Of a DNA stretch of 64,000 nucleotides, positions 48,217 to 54,359 are shown one piece after another. How positions within the stretch are numbered: position 1 is the first letter of the stretch; the number at the start of each line of letters is the position of its first letter. The position numbers were made by a program, and so were the translations under genes. The notes below the pieces were generated by a model. It was not told the origin of the DNA. It searched no databases and saw nothing but the letters and a program-made list of their open reading frames with translations. The DNA lies in the NCBI RefSeq assembly GCF_002973595.1, contig NZ_PVEO01000012.1:1-64000 (forward strand). Reading direction: 5' to 3'. The DNA is from Jejuia pallidilutea (GTDB lineage: Bacteria; Bacteroidota; Bacteroidia; Flavobacteriales; Flavobacteriaceae).

Positions 48217-49521
48217 ATGTTACTAGTATATACCCACAAAATATCACCAAGATTAAAATATGTATTTAAGCACATATGTACGCGTGTTTTGGGTATTAAG
48301 GTAGAGTTTACAACTAAAATTGAAGAGTTTATAGCGCACGATAGCTTAAAAATGTCGTACACTAAGCAGCATTTAGGAAATGAGTTTTTTATAAAAAGTA
48401 ACGATATATTGTTTGAGCAGGGACTGTCGGATATTGAAATAAACGTACAAAAATGGGAAAATACTAAATGCTTTTTTTTTAATGGTGATAAAAGCGCCAT
48501 ACCATTTGATATTTTTGCAGCTTCCTTTTATATGTTATCACGTTATGAGGAGTATTTACCTCAACGAAAAGACGAATATGGTAGGTTTTTAGCCACCGAA
48601 AGTTTAGCTTACAACCACGGCTTTTTACAACAACCTGTTGTAGATATTTGGGCATATAAATTTAAAGTAGCAATACAAAAACAGTTTCCAGATTTTAAAT
48701 TTCCAAAGCGCGAATACCGTATAAAACCAATAATAGATGTACCAAGCCCCTATAATTATAAATTAAAAGGGGTAATGCGTTCTCTAGGAGGGACGCTTAA
48801 GGATTTTTTTAGATTTAGGTTTAAGAGTTTATACAATAGGTATGCTGTACTTTTTGGTTTTAAACACGACCCTTTCGATACTTTTAAGTATATTATTAAC
48901 AAACAGAAGCAAAGTAAATTTAAGTTTTTGGTATTCTTTTTTGTAGGTTCGTATTCTACCTTCGACAAAGGTATAAATATTAACAAACGAAAATATGTAT
49001 CGCTTATAAAGCATGTGGCAGATTATTGCGAGGTAGGTTTAAAAGCATCATATTTCTCGGTAAAAGATGTGGTGCTCTTAAAAAAAGAAAAGCGCCAAAT
49101 GGAAGATGTTATAAATACATCCTTAAAAGCGTCAAGATTTTCGTTTTCAAAATTAAGCTTACCAGAATCGTATCGCAATTTAGTACAGTTAGAAATAAAT
49201 GAAGATTATACCATGGGTTACATTGATTATATAGGATTTAGAGCTGGTTCCTGCACCCCTTTTTTGTTTTATGATTTAGATTATGAAGTGCAAACACCAC
49301 TAAAAGTTTGTCCGTTTCATTTAATGGATTCCGTATTATTAAAAACAACATCCATGTTAGATAAAAAGAAAGTACTTAATACTATTATAGAAGAAATAAA
49401 GCGTGTAAATGGAGAATTTGTACCAATATTTCATAATTATACATTTAGTAATACTGCCAGATGGAATGGGTTTAAAGAATTGTTTAACAATATTTTAGCC
49501 TCAACAAATGAAGAAGCTTAA
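48217..49521 (+). CDS. Polysaccharide deacetylase family protein (DUF7033-type N-terminus)
   Basis: 434 residues from the ATG at 48217; a TTG at 48202 extends the frame by five residues and is less likely. The N-terminal part (about 1-150: MLLVYTHKISPRLKYV, IEEFIAHDSLKMSYTK) matches the domain found before NodB-like folds in flavobacteria; the rest has NodB-like elements but I do not see a clear D-D / H-x3-H metal site, so catalytic activity is uncertain. The last 14 bases overlap the YjjG gene. Confidence 0.78.
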   Translation: MLLVYTHKISPRLKYVFKHICTRVLGIKVEFTTKIEEFIAHDSLKMSYTKQHLGNEFFIKSNDILFEQGLSDIEINVQKWENTKCFFFNGDKSAIPFDIFAASFYMLSRYEEYLPQRKDEYGRFLATESLAYNHGFLQQPVVDIWAYKFKVAIQKQFPDFKFPKREYRIKPIIDVPSPYNYKLKGVMRSLGGTLKDFFRFRFKSLYNRYAVLFGFKHDPFDTFKYIINKQKQSKFKFLVFFFVGSYSTFDKGININKRKYVSLIKHVADYCEVGLKASYFSVKDVVLLKKEKRQMEDVINTSLKASRFSFSKLSLPESYRNLVQLEINEDYTMGYIDYIGFRAGSCTPFLFYDLDYEVQTPLKVCPFHLMDSVLLKTTSMLDKKKVLNTIIEEIKRVNGEFVPIFHNYTFSNTARWNGFKELFNNILASTNEEA

Positions 49522-50200
49522 CGGGATTACAGATGTTTTTTTTGATTTAGACCATACGCTATGGGATTTCGAAAAAAATTCTGCACTAACTTTTGATAGA
49601 ATATTTAAACTAAACGGGATACCCGTAGAATTAAATGAATTTTTAAAGCATTATACTCCTATTAATTTCCTGTATTGGAAACTATACAGAGAAGAACGAA
49701 TAAAAAAAGAAGCATTGCGCTTTTCTAGGTTAAATGATACGTTTAAAGCCTTAAAACTATCAGTTGAAGAGCGTGTAATTCATCAGCTCTCAGAAGATTA
49801 CATTAAACACTTATCTGCTTTTAATTTCTTAATGGAAGATGCCACAAGTATATTAAAATATCTTCAGTCTCATTACAAATTACATATAATTACCAATGGT
49901 TTTAATGAGGTTCAGTATAGAAAAATGGATACATCTAATATCATTCATTTTTTTGAAACCATTACTAACTCTGAGATAGCAGGCGTAAAGAAACCAAATC
50001 CTAAAATATTTAATTTTGCATTGAATTTGGCCAAAGCTAAACCAGAGCAAAGTATAATGATAGGCGATAGTATGGAGGCCGATGTAGAAGGTGCCCTAAA
50101 TATAGGGATGGATGCTATTTTCTTCAACCCTAATAACGCAAGTTTTAACGGTGGTATAAAAGGAGTTTCTAAATTAATTGAACTAAAAATGTACTTGTAA
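49508..50200 (+). CDS. yjjG: YjjG-type noncanonical pyrimidine nucleotidase (HAD family)
   Basis: 230 residues. HAD motifs are complete: I DLDHTLWDF (DxDxT), II ITNGF, III GVKKPNPKIF and IV GDSMEADVEGA, with a helical C1 cap between I and II. The family dephosphorylates pyrimidine nucleotides and protects against mutagenic bases. Overlaps the deacetylase-like gene by 14 bases and is followed 33 bases later by the three-gene envelope cassette. Confidence 0.92.
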   Translation: MKKLNGITDVFFDLDHTLWDFEKNSALTFDRIFKLNGIPVELNEFLKHYTPINFLYWKLYREERIKKEALRFSRLNDTFKALKLSVEERVIHQLSEDYIKHLSAFNFLMEDATSILKYLQSHYKLHIITNGFNEVQYRKMDTSNIIHFFETITNSEIAGVKKPNPKIFNFALNLAKAKPEQSIMIGDSMEADVEGALNIGMDAIFFNPNNASFNGGIKGVSKLIELKMYL

Positions 50201-50236: not shown

Positions 50237-50791
50237 ATGATAAAAAATAAAATTGTTATAACTACTTTTTTAGGGGTGCTCTTGCTAAATTATTTTAGTT
50301 GTACTAAGCCCGTAGATTTTAATCAGGCCAATACTTTAGTTTTAGAACCTGTTGTAGAATCTAGTTTAATTTTTTATGAAGCATCAGCTAAAGATTTTTT
50401 TCTTGGTGGCTCCGAAGAGAGTGTAGCTGAGGATTTTATAGAGATAGATTTTTTTAACAATAGTTTTGTACAAGATAACCTTGTAAAAGCAGAGTTTGTT
50501 TTTAATATTGAAAACTCCATTAACCGTGGCTACCAACTTCACATAAGCTTTTTAGATAATGCTAACCAATTGTTAGAACGTTTTACAGTAAATACAAGTG
50601 CCTCGGCAAATAATAACATTATAAAAACTACCCATACCGAAGTTTTCGAGGGCGAAACGCTTCAGCGTATAAAACGTTCAAGAATACTTGTTTTTACGCT
50701 CGTAATGCTTCCTGGTGAAGCTATTAATGCAGACACTCCAGGAGAAATAAGTGTGCAATCCAAAGGTATCTTTTCTTTAAACATTAATTAA
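50237..50791 (+). CDS. Lipoprotein of unknown function
   Basis: 184 residues from the ATG at 50237 (a TTG at 50234 sits directly before it). Lipoprotein signal with lipobox NYFSC (cysteine about residue 22). The mature part is a beta-rich single domain (FVFNIENSINRGYQLHISFL) with a hydrophobic C-terminus. It lies 6 bases upstream of the DUF5723 gene and belongs to its transcript. Family not recognised. Confidence 0.8.
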   Translation: MIKNKIVITTFLGVLLLNYFSCTKPVDFNQANTLVLEPVVESSLIFYEASAKDFFLGGSEESVAEDFIEIDFFNNSFVQDNLVKAEFVFNIENSINRGYQLHISFLDNANQLLERFTVNTSASANNNIIKTTHTEVFEGETLQRIKRSRILVFTLVMLPGEAINADTPGEISVQSKGIFSLNIN

Positions 50792-50796
50792 CGATT

Positions 50797-52209
50797 TTGA
50801 AGAAACTTCCCTTTATTTTAATACTAACACTAAGCTTTTGTTTCTCACAAAACAAACAATTGCTTTATGGGTTTTCTGAAATACCACAAGCTTTGCTATT
50901 AAATCCTGGGGGAAAGGTTGAAAATAAAGGCTATTTTGGCATTCCCTTTCTGTCACAGATTCATTTAAATGGAGGGTCTTCAGAAATTTCTATTTATGAT
51001 ATTTTTGCTGAGGATGGTAGAGATTTTAATGTAAAATTACGAGATGCAGTACAACAATTGCAACCAAATGATTTTTTAACAGCTACACAACAATTAGAAC
51101 TGTTTTCTGGTGGTTTTGCATTCGGGCCTTCTTATAATAAAAATAAGTATTTAAGTTTTGGGCTTTACCAAGAGTTTGATTTTGTTGGTTATTTTCCCAA
51201 AGATTATGCTGTTTTGGCCTTAGAAGGTAATCAATCTAATATCGGAAAGCCTTTTAAATTAGACCATCTAAATTTAAACGCCGACATACTCTCTGTACTG
51301 CATGTAGGTTATAATGAAAAAGTGAATGGTAAATTTACCTATGGTGTACGCGGAAAAATATATTCAAGTATTTTTAATGTAAATTCAACTAAAAATAAAG
51401 GTACATTTACTACCGTTAACGGTGACAATAATATATATGAACATATTTTTAATTTAGATTTAGCAGTAAGAACTTCTGGTATATCAAGTCTCATAAACGA
51501 TGATAATGATGATTTTAGTGAAGATATTAAAACACTACAAAAGCGTGTATTATTTGGCCAAAACTTAGGTTTAGGTTTCGATATAGGTTTTACCTATCAA
51601 ATAAATAAACAATGGTATGTAGACGGTAGTTTGTTGGATATTGGTTTTATACATCACTCTAAAGATATTGAAAACTATGAGCTAAAAGACGATTTTACTT
51701 TTGAAGGGATAGATCCACTTTTTCCAGAATCGAACGAAGGGCAGTCTGCTAATGATTATTGGAGTGAACTAGAAGAAGATTTTGAAGACCTTTTTGAAAT
51801 AGACACAACGCAAACACAATATACCGTTTGGAGACCTGTAAAATTAAATGCCTCTTTAAATTATGCGTTCGGTAAAAAAAAGTTAAAAGATTGCGACTGT
51901 TTGGCAGAAGATGGTGGTTTTTTAAACAGGGTAGGTGCACAACTATACGCGGTAAAAAGACCAAAAGGCCTACAGGCTGCTTTAACGGCGTATTATTACA
52001 GACGTATTCTTAAAGGTTTAAGCGCCAAGGCAACCTACACCATAGATCCGTACTCTTTTAGTAATATTGGATTAGGCGTATCTGCAAATATTTTGGGCTT
52101 AAATATATACCTTATGGCCGATAATTTTTTGTCTTATCAAAACATATATGATGCACAAAATGTATCTTTACAATTAGGACTTAATTATATTTTTAAAAAT
52201 GAAAACTAA
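50797..52209 (+). CDS. DUF5723 family outer-membrane beta-barrel protein (TTG start)
   Basis: 470 residues. The start is TTG at 50797: no nearby ATG gives a signal peptide, while the TTG gives MKKLPFILILTLSFCFSQ. The mature protein has many amphipathic strands with aromatic turns and ends LGLNYIFKNEN; the opening LLYGFSEIPQALLLNPG is typical of DUF5723, which I place with the outer-membrane barrels. Function unknown. An acidic loop (residues about 310-340, DYWSELEEDFEDLFEID) stands out. Overlaps the next gene by 11 bases. Confidence 0.85.
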   Translation: MKKLPFILILTLSFCFSQNKQLLYGFSEIPQALLLNPGGKVENKGYFGIPFLSQIHLNGGSSEISIYDIFAEDGRDFNVKLRDAVQQLQPNDFLTATQQLELFSGGFAFGPSYNKNKYLSFGLYQEFDFVGYFPKDYAVLALEGNQSNIGKPFKLDHLNLNADILSVLHVGYNEKVNGKFTYGVRGKIYSSIFNVNSTKNKGTFTTVNGDNNIYEHIFNLDLAVRTSGISSLINDDNDDFSEDIKTLQKRVLFGQNLGLGFDIGFTYQINKQWYVDGSLLDIGFIHHSKDIENYELKDDFTFEGIDPLFPESNEGQSANDYWSELEEDFEDLFEIDTTQTQYTVWRPVKLNASLNYAFGKKKLKDCDCLAEDGGFLNRVGAQLYAVKRPKGLQAALTAYYYRRILKGLSAKATYTIDPYSFSNIGLGVSANILGLNIYLMADNFLSYQNIYDAQNVSLQLGLNYIFKNEN

Positions 52210-53062
52210 AGTATTTATCTCTATTATCGCTTTTTTTATAATTTCAAGCGTATTTGCGCAAACCAATCTTAATAATTACAAATACGTAATTGTACCAAAT
52301 AAATTCGATTTTCTAAATGAAGAAAACCAATATCGCTTAAACGAGCTAACTCAGTTCTTGTTTAATAAATATGGGTTTACCGCTTTAATGGAAGGCAGCG
52401 AATATCCAGAGGATTTAATAAAAGATAGGTGCTTAGCTTTACGTACACACGTTATGAAAGATTCTGGTATGTTTAAAACAAAGTTAAAAGTTGTATTAAA
52501 AGATTGTAACGATAGAGTAGTATTTACCTCTAAGGAAGGAGAAAGTAGAGAAAAAGAATTTGACGTGGCATACAACAGGTCGTTAAGAGATGCCTTTACT
52601 TCTTTTGAAGCTTTAAATTATAATTACACGCCAAAACCTTCAAAACTGGCAGTAACCAAAAGTTTGTCAGATAATAAAACAGATGCAAAGGTTTTGGAAG
52701 AAGTAAAAAAACTTAAAGAAGAGCTACAAACGCTTAAAGAACAAAAAGCAATTACAGCAGCTAACGAAGAAACCAAAATGGCAAAAGCTATAGTAACCGA
52801 AGCAGAACAAAAGGTTGTTTCTACAAAAAGTACTGCAATAAAAGTGGTTAACGGTATTTTGTATGCTCAGGAAATTACTAATGGTTATCAATTGGTAGAT
52901 AGCACTCCAAAAGTAGTATTCAGAATTAAAAAAACCGGACTTAAAAATGTGTTTTTAGTGGAAGGGGAGAGCGCCATTATCTACAAACAAGATAATGTTT
53001 GGATACTAGAAGAATATGTAAATGATGAGTTGAGTAAAAAAGAACTAAATCTAAAATTTTAA
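52199..53062 (+). CDS. Exported coiled-coil protein of unknown function
   Basis: 287 residues. Signal peptide (about 1-21). An N-terminal globular domain (about 24-145, YKYVIVPNKFDFLNEENQYR) resembles the first part of many flavobacterial exported proteins; a short coiled coil follows (about 165-195, EEVKKLKEELQTLKEQK), then a C-terminal beta domain (about 215-287, VVNGILYAQEITNGYQLVDS). It is translated from inside the end of the DUF5723 gene, so the two are coupled. No family assigned. Confidence 0.82.
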   Translation: MKTKVFISIIAFFIISSVFAQTNLNNYKYVIVPNKFDFLNEENQYRLNELTQFLFNKYGFTALMEGSEYPEDLIKDRCLALRTHVMKDSGMFKTKLKVVLKDCNDRVVFTSKEGESREKEFDVAYNRSLRDAFTSFEALNYNYTPKPSKLAVTKSLSDNKTDAKVLEEVKKLKEELQTLKEQKAITAANEETKMAKAIVTEAEQKVVSTKSTAIKVVNGILYAQEITNGYQLVDSTPKVVFRIKKTGLKNVFLVEGESAIIYKQDNVWILEEYVNDELSKKELNLKF

Positions 53063-53075
53063 TATGAAACACTGC

Positions 53076-54359
53076 CTAATAGCCATATTTATCTTTCCAA
53101 CGTTTTTTTAAAAAATCCCGTTGGGCATTTTCCCTAGCATTATTACCCGGTTCATACAGTTTTGTGTTTTTTACATCTTCTGGTAAAAACTCTTGGTTTG
53201 CAAAGTTGTTATCGTAGTTATGCGCATATTTGTAATTCTCCCCATACCCCAATTCTTTCATTAGTTTTGTTGGTGCATTTCTAATTTCTAGAGGAACCGA
53301 TAAATCGCCTGTTTCCTTAACCAATTGCTGTGCGGCGCCTATAGCTTTATAGGCAGCATTACTTTTAGGAGAACACGCTAAATAGGTAGCACATTGGCTT
53401 AAAATGATTCTAGATTCTGGAAAACCTATAGTAGATACTGCCTGAAATGTATTATTTGCAATTACCAAAGCCGTAGGATTAGCATTTCCAATATCTTCAC
53501 TAGCAGAAATTAAAAGCCTGCGTGCAATAAACTTAACATCCTCACCACCTTCAATCATACGTGCCAGCCAATATACGGCTGCATTTGGGTCGCTACCACG
53601 TATAGATTTTATAAAGGCAGAAATAATATCATAATGTTGCTCTCCAGTTTTATCATATCTAACCGTATTGTTCTGTACCTTATCTAACACATAGCTATTG
53701 GTAATAATAATTTTATCAGCATCACTAGAATTTACAATTAATTCAAAAATATTAAGCAATTTTCTAGCATCTCCACCAGAAAGCCTTAATAAGGCGTCCG
53801 TTTCCTCAAGTTTAATATGTTTTTGGGAGATAATCTCATCATTTTCAATGGCGCGATGTAAGAGTGTCTCTAAATCTTGTTTAGAAAAAGCATTTAAAAT
53901 ATATACCTGACATCGAGACAATAATGCAGGAATCACCTCAAAACTCGGATTTTCAGTAGTAGCACCAATTAAAGTAATCCAACCTTTTTCTACAGCCTGA
54001 AGTAAAGAATCTTGTTGCGATTTACTAAACCTATGTATTTCATCAATAAATAAAATAGGATTCTTAGTAGTAAACAAACCCCCACTTTGTTTTGCTTTTT
54101 CAATAACGTCCCTTATGTCTTTTACACCAGAATTTATAGCACTTAAAGTGTAAAAGGGTCTTTTGGAATCTGTGGCAATTATATTTGCCAGGGTTGTTTT
54201 GCCAGTTCCTGGTGGCCCCCAAAAAATCATAGACGCAATCAGTCCATGCTTTAGTTGTTGTGTTAAAGCACCGTTTTTGCCAACCAAGTGTGTTTGGCTC
54301 ACATAATCTGTCAAATTTTTAGGGCGTAATCGTTCCGCTAAAGGCGTATTCACATTCAT
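53076..54359 (-). CDS. rarA: Replication-associated recombination protein A
   Basis: 427 residues. AAA+ clamp-loader-like ATPase: Walker A FWGPPGTGKTTLA (about residue 50), Walker B LFIDEIHRFSKSQQD, sensor 1 GATTENPSFE and sensor 2 GGDARKLLN, then the C-terminal RarA/WRNIP1 oligomerisation region (AVYWLARMIEGGED). It acts at stalled replication forks. Convergent with the coiled-coil gene, and the REP-like element lies just upstream of its start. Confidence 0.96.
   Translation of the reverse strand: MNVNTPLAERLRPKNLTDYVSQTHLVGKNGALTQQLKHGLIASMIFWGPPGTGKTTLANIIATDSKRPFYTLSAINSGVKDIRDVIEKAKQSGGLFTTKNPILFIDEIHRFSKSQQDSLLQAVEKGWITLIGATTENPSFEVIPALLSRCQVYILNAFSKQDLETLLHRAIENDEIISQKHIKLEETDALLRLSGGDARKLLNIFELIVNSSDADKIIITNSYVLDKVQNNTVRYDKTGEQHYDIISAFIKSIRGSDPNAAVYWLARMIEGGEDVKFIARRLLISASEDIGNANPTALVIANNTFQAVSTIGFPESRIILSQCATYLACSPKSNAAYKAIGAAQQLVKETGDLSVPLEIRNAPTKLMKELGYGENYKYAHNYDNNFANQEFLPEDVKNTKLYEPGNNARENAQRDFLKKRWKDKYGY

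Follow-up and report, generated by a model that had tools for sequence, protein, structure and literature searches.

A DUF5723 barrel gene and its upstream lipoprotein gene form a two-gene outer-membrane module in Flavobacteriaceae

When three genes for exported proteins lie packed together on one strand, do they define a single system, or is one of them no more than a neighbour? The question is raised by a stretch of 64,000 nucleotides from Jejuia pallidilutea (positions 1 to 64,000 of contig NZ_PVEO01000012.1; host genome assembly, 4.1 Mb), hereafter the window, in which a lipoprotein (50237..50791), a DUF5723 outer-membrane beta-barrel (50797..52209) and an exported coiled-coil protein (52199..53062) are encoded in succession on the + strand. 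An original prediction, made from the letters of the sequence, saw in these genes a three-part cassette specifying an envelope-spanning complex. Our analyses reveal a real outer-membrane module, but one of two genes: lipoprotein and barrel belong together, and the prediction was overextended in drawing in the third.

The lipoprotein gene encodes 184 residues from an ATG (a TTG one codon upstream is an alternative start) and specifies a signal sequence, a cysteine at position 22 that by eye ends a lipobox-like motif (..NYFS-C22), a conserved tail and a single predicted jelly-roll domain. The barrel (470 residues, TTG start) matches DUF5723 (PF18990, 4.5e-109), as had been predicted, and its closest named match among the 13 loci found is that of Hyunsoonleella pacifica, at 77%. 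The coiled-coil protein (287 residues) comprises a conserved N-terminal part, a variable coiled-coil linker and a C-terminal part. Read by eye, the hydrophobic leader of the barrel ends in S-Q and that of the coiled-coil protein in A-Q, and all three products thus carry the export signals first ascribed to them. The coordinates, the strand and the 11-base overlap of the barrel and coiled-coil genes also stand; the gap between the lipoprotein and barrel genes is 5 bases, and not the 6 originally given. Neither the lipoprotein nor the coiled-coil protein reaches the cut-off of any Pfam or NCBIfam family, and a scan of the locus for promoters and terminators returned sites no more frequently than shuffled sequence did.

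A pair of genes in a conserved slot

The distribution of the three genes was determined across 60 Flavobacteriaceae genomes, one per genus, with a barrel counted as orthologous at an E-value of at most 1e-50. Such a barrel is present in 30 genomes (two more contain only weak matches near 1e-6), and a profile of the lipoprotein finds matches in 29: in all 29 the lipoprotein gene lies directly upstream of the barrel gene. One genome (G045) holds a second, weak lipoprotein match elsewhere (1.4e-4). The coiled-coil gene, by contrast, occurs in 50 genomes: 28 of the 30 that encode the barrel and 22 of the 30 that lack the pair (Fisher p 0.08). All 22 of the latter regions were examined. In 17, yjjG is directly upstream of the coiled-coil gene, and in 15 the full order radC, VimE relative, yjjG, coiled coil, convergent mgsA is found. 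The pair therefore occupies a slot between yjjG and the coiled-coil gene, and is a unit that is either present in that slot or absent from it.

Where the barrel is present, the order yjjG–lipoprotein–DUF5723–coiled coil is kept in 27 of 30 genomes, which places the layout beyond chance. In two genomes that carry the pair (G016 and G033) the coiled-coil profile finds no match, and elsewhere the pair resides at different sites. In Flavobacterium pectinovorum (L073) and in two loci of genus g61, taken to be Flavobacterium on account of neighbours common with F. pectinovorum, the pair is flanked by an HMG-CoA-lyase-like gene on one side and guaB on the other, and the coiled-coil gene is not adjacent; eleven more g61 loci, each read over ~3–4 kb, contain the pair without yjjG, mgsA or coiled coil. 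In L070, a metagenome-assembled genome labelled Flavobacterium sp., the pair is found in the usual yjjG slot and the coiled-coil gene is present. The pair stays together at four sites in all: the yjjG slot, beside guaB, and two others (the neighbour names guaB, HMG-CoA-lyase-like, prfA and LptF/G, here and below, were assigned by reading the sequences).

Separate occurrence, which the original prediction had named as grounds against itself, is thus largely the case for the coiled-coil gene and not for lipoprotein and barrel. We reject the three-gene cassette as a unit, and found no evidence beyond gene layout for an envelope-spanning complex of three parts; the third gene probably does no more than lie next to the pair. 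The N-terminal part of its product is conserved, and seven of ten aligned members end in LN(I/L)KF.

Within the pair, linkage is tight: in 60 of 62 loci the lipoprotein and DUF5723 genes are separated by −40 to +5 bases (the remaining two loci have gaps of 79 and 85), with a 4-base overlap in 36, start codons having been chosen by a simple script. The gap from barrel to coiled-coil gene ranges from −11 to 160 bases (43 loci). Once corrected for mgsA, gene distances correlate at 0.63 for lipoprotein and barrel, 0.37 for lipoprotein and coiled coil, and 0.44 for barrel and coiled coil (39 loci). When the presence of the pair is mapped on a gene tree of yjjG and mgsA (of 53 loci given, 44 were kept), it requires 10 changes, against a shuffled mean of 14.1, with 8 of 500 shuffles as low; few branches of this tree are well supported, and on it loss and transfer are therefore indistinguishable.

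Genomes with the pair are larger than those without (means of 3.87 vs 2.84 Mb, p 2e-5). They also contain more SusD genes (median of 7 vs 4, p 0.03; counts in six genomes are lower bounds, the best 32 candidates having been scored), but this excess vanishes once genome size is taken into account (partial r −0.08, p 0.57), and a link between the pair and SusCD load was rejected for want of an association beyond genome size. That the pair is commoner in larger genomes, with no size-corrected tie to SusD, fits an accessory, non-essential function.

The slot is bordered upstream by a pyrimidine nucleotidase gene of the yjjG family (49508..50200, +; TIGR02254, 187.2 bits against a cut-off of 159.9) and downstream by a convergent gene for an mgsA-type AAA ATPase (53076..54359, −; PF12002, 1.2e-69). 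The original prediction had named yjjG and a polysaccharide deacetylase-like gene as same-strand genes upstream: the former is confirmed, and the latter (48256..49521, +), part of the conserved block around the slot, is classed here as a DUF7033 relative of VimE, which at 151.7 bits against a cut-off of 440 is not VimE by that model. This gene stays beside radC and yjjG in pair-less genomes too, and the idea that it links the pair to VimE and lipopolysaccharide was discarded on that ground.

Antiquity of the pairing

Of 296 genomes drawn from across the phylum, 166 contain PF18990, paired or unpaired. Among 44 further DUF5723 loci, the barrel is adjoined by a larger lipoprotein-like protein (488–903 residues) in 16 and by a lipoprotein of the flavobacterial type in 4; in 24 no matching lipoprotein was seen. 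When 410 genes from 36 loci were searched with a profile built on 65 Flavobacteriaceae lipoproteins (three of them taken from genomes counted twice), nine matched at E < 0.01, all nine beside DUF5723: four were members of the training set and five were new. A further lipoprotein profile search yielded 19 matches, 12 from the training set and seven new (L080, L081, L082, L083, L105, L108 and L154); all seven adjoin DUF5723, and the lipoprotein of L155 was missed. In profile comparisons the flavobacterial lipoprotein domain matches the C-terminal domain found in one distant set (probability 87.7, E 3.4e-6), and this first distant set matches the second (99.4%, 5.5e-22).

On a tree of 52 DUF5723 barrels, 5 changes account for which barrels are labelled paired and which unpaired, compared with 17.6 under shuffled labels, and 19 of 24 unpaired barrels form one clade (Shimodaira–Hasegawa-like approximate likelihood ratio test, 100). 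The labels were assigned by hand: L155 was called paired without a profile match and L103 unpaired though a lipoprotein-like gene follows. The pairing is old, being present also in distant relatives of the Flavobacteriaceae, and we infer that it is ancestral for the rest of the DUF5723 family, outside the unpaired clade.

Some features of these loci are recorded here in their own right. In the lipoprotein-less clade, L074, L076, L077, L102 and L150 have open reading frames of 655–856 residues. A neighbouring gene reads like prfA in L093, L095, L100 and L102. In L086, L087 and L088 the distant pair has as neighbours two genes of opposite orientation whose sequences resemble, on reading, LptF/LptG permeases.

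Predicted folds and a conserved lipoprotein tail

The barrel was modelled with AlphaFold2 from a 14-sequence alignment (predicted local distance difference test (pLDDT) 71.1, predicted template modelling score 0.72). The model has the FadL fold: entries for FadL, TodX, TbuX and CymD match it with Z 19.9–24.2 and root-mean-square deviation (rmsd) 4.5–6.7 over 288–330 aligned residues, among them CymD (Z 24.2, rmsd 4.5, 294 aligned) and an E. coli FadL mutant (Z 23.6, rmsd 5.0, 301 aligned), and TbuX and TodX are also the top matches in Foldseek (E 1e-5 and 2e-5). Chain F of the type 9 translocon, which we take to be PorV, scores comparably (6h3i: Z 21.5, rmsd 4.5, 260 aligned; 8gl6: Z 21.6, rmsd 8.6, 277 aligned), and BamG gives Z 17.8–19.4 in three structures. 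The assignment to the FadL superfamily is at the level of fold only, with strand number not settled by the model. A Pfam scan of the barrel returned only DUF5723 and a weak match to DUF3575.

With FadL, TodX and CymD the barrel shares its fold (Z about 20–24) and an NPA-type motif after the N-terminal tail; it differs from them in having no Toluene_X match in Pfam at E up to 1, in a tail that in flavobacterial DUF5723 is about half as long, and in its lipoprotein partner. Assuming cleavage before Q18, the tail of the mature protein runs from Q18 to G38 (QNKQLLYGFSEIPQALLLNPG; 50848..50910, +). A FadL transporter would be expected to have NPA closing a plug of ~33 residues, whereas the motif here is NPG after 18 residues. 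The same length of 18 precedes the NP motif in 58 of 63 paired Flavobacteriaceae barrels (three differ and two are not measurable); the host genome's own FadL, BamG and BamG2-like barrels have tails of 33, 42 and 43 residues. For the 11 distant paired barrels examined (of 16) the picture is mixed: six have FadL-like tails of 28–32 residues before NPA, three have 17–18, one has two NP motifs and a tail of 14 before the first, and one is not measurable. A CxC motif (Cys366-Asp-Cys368; 51892..51900, +), both cysteines of which are invariant in the 14 aligned barrels, sits in the model in a predicted turn between strands.

The AlphaFold2 model of the lipoprotein is a jelly roll (pLDDT 83.8). Its best fold match is 4h3w, an uncharacterised Parabacteroides protein (Z 12.8, rmsd 3.0, 131 aligned), followed mostly by viral capsid, cellulose-synthase-subunit and lectin-like jelly rolls; the fold search gave no functional hint. 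The lipoprotein is less conserved than the barrel, and conservation within it peaks at the presumed acylated cysteine and the tail that follows (CTKPVDFNQ, codons 22–30; 50300..50326, +). Across 62 lipoproteins, residues 22–30 carry 3.03 bits per column, residues 31–40 carry 2.25 and residues 41–184 carry 1.83; the best nine-residue stretch starting after residue 30 reaches 2.53. PMC12578637 takes as its criterion for a surface lipoprotein two or more acidic residues in the six positions that follow the acylated cysteine; 50 of 61 relatives have them (one more, L053, could not be read).

Known barrel–lipoprotein systems and a possible role

FadL-family barrels have precedents as partners of surface proteins. 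According to two 2025 papers (PMC12611786 and PMC12578637), the beta-barrel assembly machinery (BAM) complex of Bacteroidota contains a FadL-family barrel, BamG, which binds the conserved N-terminus of the surface lipoprotein BamH; both are reported across six of seven other phyla of the Fibrobacterota–Chlorobiota–Bacteroidota group, and BamG2–BamH2 of B. thetaiotaomicron is described as a putative operon whose role is not known. PorV and PorP-like (PorP/SprF) barrels, also of the FadL family and of the same phylum, are said in PMC9143113 to bind surface proteins and type IX cargo. PMC12045153 describes a lipoprotein beside a FadL homologue in F. johnsoniae (Fjoh_4940/4941), both changed on TamL depletion; these two genes were considered and set aside, not being shown to be a DUF5723 pair.

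In construction the pair resembles BamG–BamH and BamG2–BamH2: a FadL-fold barrel together with a lipoprotein that has a highly conserved N-terminus and, as in the host genome's own BamH2–BamG2-like operon, a lipoprotein gene that precedes the barrel gene. The host, however, has its own BamG (L141, 3e-105 to 9n2d_B), BamH (PF14092 match, 9.5e-49 to 9n2d_C), BamG2-like operon (L144; G000 C4, about 134105–136700; a DUF4270 lipoprotein, called BamH2-like without a PDB comparison of its own, then a barrel with 4.4e-45 to 9hjm_F) and PorV (C7:17660, 8.8e-138), all located elsewhere, and identity of the pair with BamG/BamH or BamG2/BamH2 was rejected. The barrel has no sequence match to BamG (Toluene_X; 9n2d_B) or PorV (PF19572), nor the lipoprotein one of DUF4270 type (PF14092, 9n2d_C); profile comparison of the pair with BamG and BamH found no relation, a weak negative because the opposing profiles had two rows each. 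The pair is therefore built like BamG–BamH without being a member of that family. Toluene_X and DUF4270 there stand against DUF5723 and an unnamed family here; DUF4270 occurs in 59 of the 60 genomes and the pair in half of them; and where BamG has a tail about 10 residues longer than that of FadL, the window barrel has 18 residues against the 42 and 43 of BamG and its BamG2-like relative. By reading of the counts, the BamH2-like DUF4270 gene is present in 7 of 60 genomes, and a link between it and the pair was rejected (5/30 vs 2/30, p 0.42). SusC–SusD likewise has barrel and lipoprotein genes side by side, but the pair has no TonB-dependent receptor or SusD domain in Pfam at E up to 1. Its two conserved ends and variable linker had suggested BamP for the coiled-coil protein, but a profile of 10 sequences matched no chain of BAM structure 9n2d at E up to 10, and the idea was rejected.

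A two-part outer-membrane complex of lipoprotein and barrel is plausible. The explanation that we prefer, tentatively and as something rather short of probable, is that an acylated tail attaches the lipoprotein to a FadL-type channel, which the lipoprotein would cap or feed. It draws on what the analysis shows: the linkage of the two genes, their presence and absence together, the antiquity of the pairing, the predicted folds and the conserved tail. The DUF5723 protein would be the FadL-fold barrel and the lipoprotein encoded upstream its cognate partner, docked through the conserved N-terminal tail, with the jelly-roll domain probably on the outer surface as a cap or capture domain; the likeliest job would be to let a small ligand, hydrophobic or other, pass through the barrel in the way that FadL does. 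Docking is suggested because the FadL-family precedents (BamG–BamH, PorV, PorP-like) hold surface proteins, and by analogy the pair appears to be one more case of a barrel keeping a lipoprotein at the cell surface.

Several observations weigh against this explanation. The window lipoprotein has one acidic residue in the six after its cysteine (TKPVDF), below the two expected of a surface lipoprotein. In one of the 30 barrel-bearing genomes (G025), yjjG, barrel and coiled coil are present but no lipoprotein could be detected. Of 14 larger lipoproteins that adjoin distant barrels, the flavobacterial profile failed to find 9, and no direct profile match connects the flavobacterial set to the second distant set. 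The distance correlation is not specific: barrel and yjjG correlate at 0.65, as high as lipoprotein and barrel, and all six gene pairs exceed every one of 500 permutations. The barrel model is of middling confidence (pLDDT 71.1), with low Foldseek TM-scores (template modelling scores, 0.38). Finally, at 18 residues the tail has roughly half the length of the plug in the host's FadL, and gating of the FadL type may therefore not apply; a tail this short argues against the copying of either FadL gating or the contact between BamG and BamA.

The chief rival holds that the pair is a BamG–BamH-like accessory of outer-membrane protein assembly, with the barrel on BamA or another Omp85 and the lipoprotein in an extracellular canopy for special clients. 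The gene order matches that of the host's DUF4270–BamG2-like operon, the barrel resembles BamG in fold (Z 17.8–19.4 in three structures), and both the conserved lipoprotein N-terminus and the spread beyond one family recall what PMC12611786 and PMC12578637 report for BamH and for BamG and BamH. We nonetheless consider it unlikely, since the longer tail by which BamG touches BamA is lacking (18 vs 42 residues), there is no SusD excess beyond genome size (partial r −0.08), the profiles (weakly, with two rows opposing) show no relation to BamG or BamH, and the pair is found in 30 of 60 genera as against 59 for DUF4270; nor is it among the subunits that are listed for the F. johnsoniae BAM complex, carriage of the pair by F. 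johnsoniae not being established.

That the barrel docks type IX secretion cargo as PorV and PorP do, and that the lipoprotein is an accessory to it, is improbable: chain F of 6h3i and 8gl6, presumably PorV, is among the best fold matches, but the host's PorV is a different gene and the barrel has no PorV match in Pfam. Slightly more doubtful again is export of the lipoprotein to the surface by the barrel, in the manner of Slam, a reading that would suit an adjacent lipoprotein less conserved than the barrel and much larger in distant groups (488–903 residues). Slam barrels belong to another family, and against this reading stand the FadL fold, a Pfam scan confined to DUF5723 and weak DUF3575, and the existence of DUF5723 barrels with no adjacent lipoprotein. 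Least probable of all, and very unlikely, is the single envelope complex of three genes first proposed: the order kept in 27 of 30 barrel genomes and the gap of −11 to 160 bases between barrel and coiled coil favour it, but 22 of the 30 genomes that lack the pair still have the coiled-coil gene (17 of them immediately downstream of yjjG), the pair-bearing G016 and G033 have no match to it, and it is missing from the surroundings of the pair in F. pectinovorum and in 13 g61 loci.

No paper on DUF5723/PF18990 was found in the open-access literature (subscription papers being mostly outside the search), and the lipoproteins scanned matched no Pfam or NCBIfam family over cut-off. It is possible, and to our minds not far from an even prospect, that the pair constitutes a further lineage of complexes between a FadL barrel and a lipoprotein, ancient enough to be common to Flavobacteriaceae and other classes of the wider phylum, separate from BAM and type IX secretion, and with an unnamed lipoprotein of ~180–900 residues. 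FadL-family barrels recur in the phylum as holders of surface proteins, as the literature cited above describes for BamG, PorV and PorP/SprF; a pair outside these known holders, with a lipoprotein that databases do not name, would extend that pattern. The pair also offers a clean, probably non-essential two-gene target for Flavobacterium genetics.

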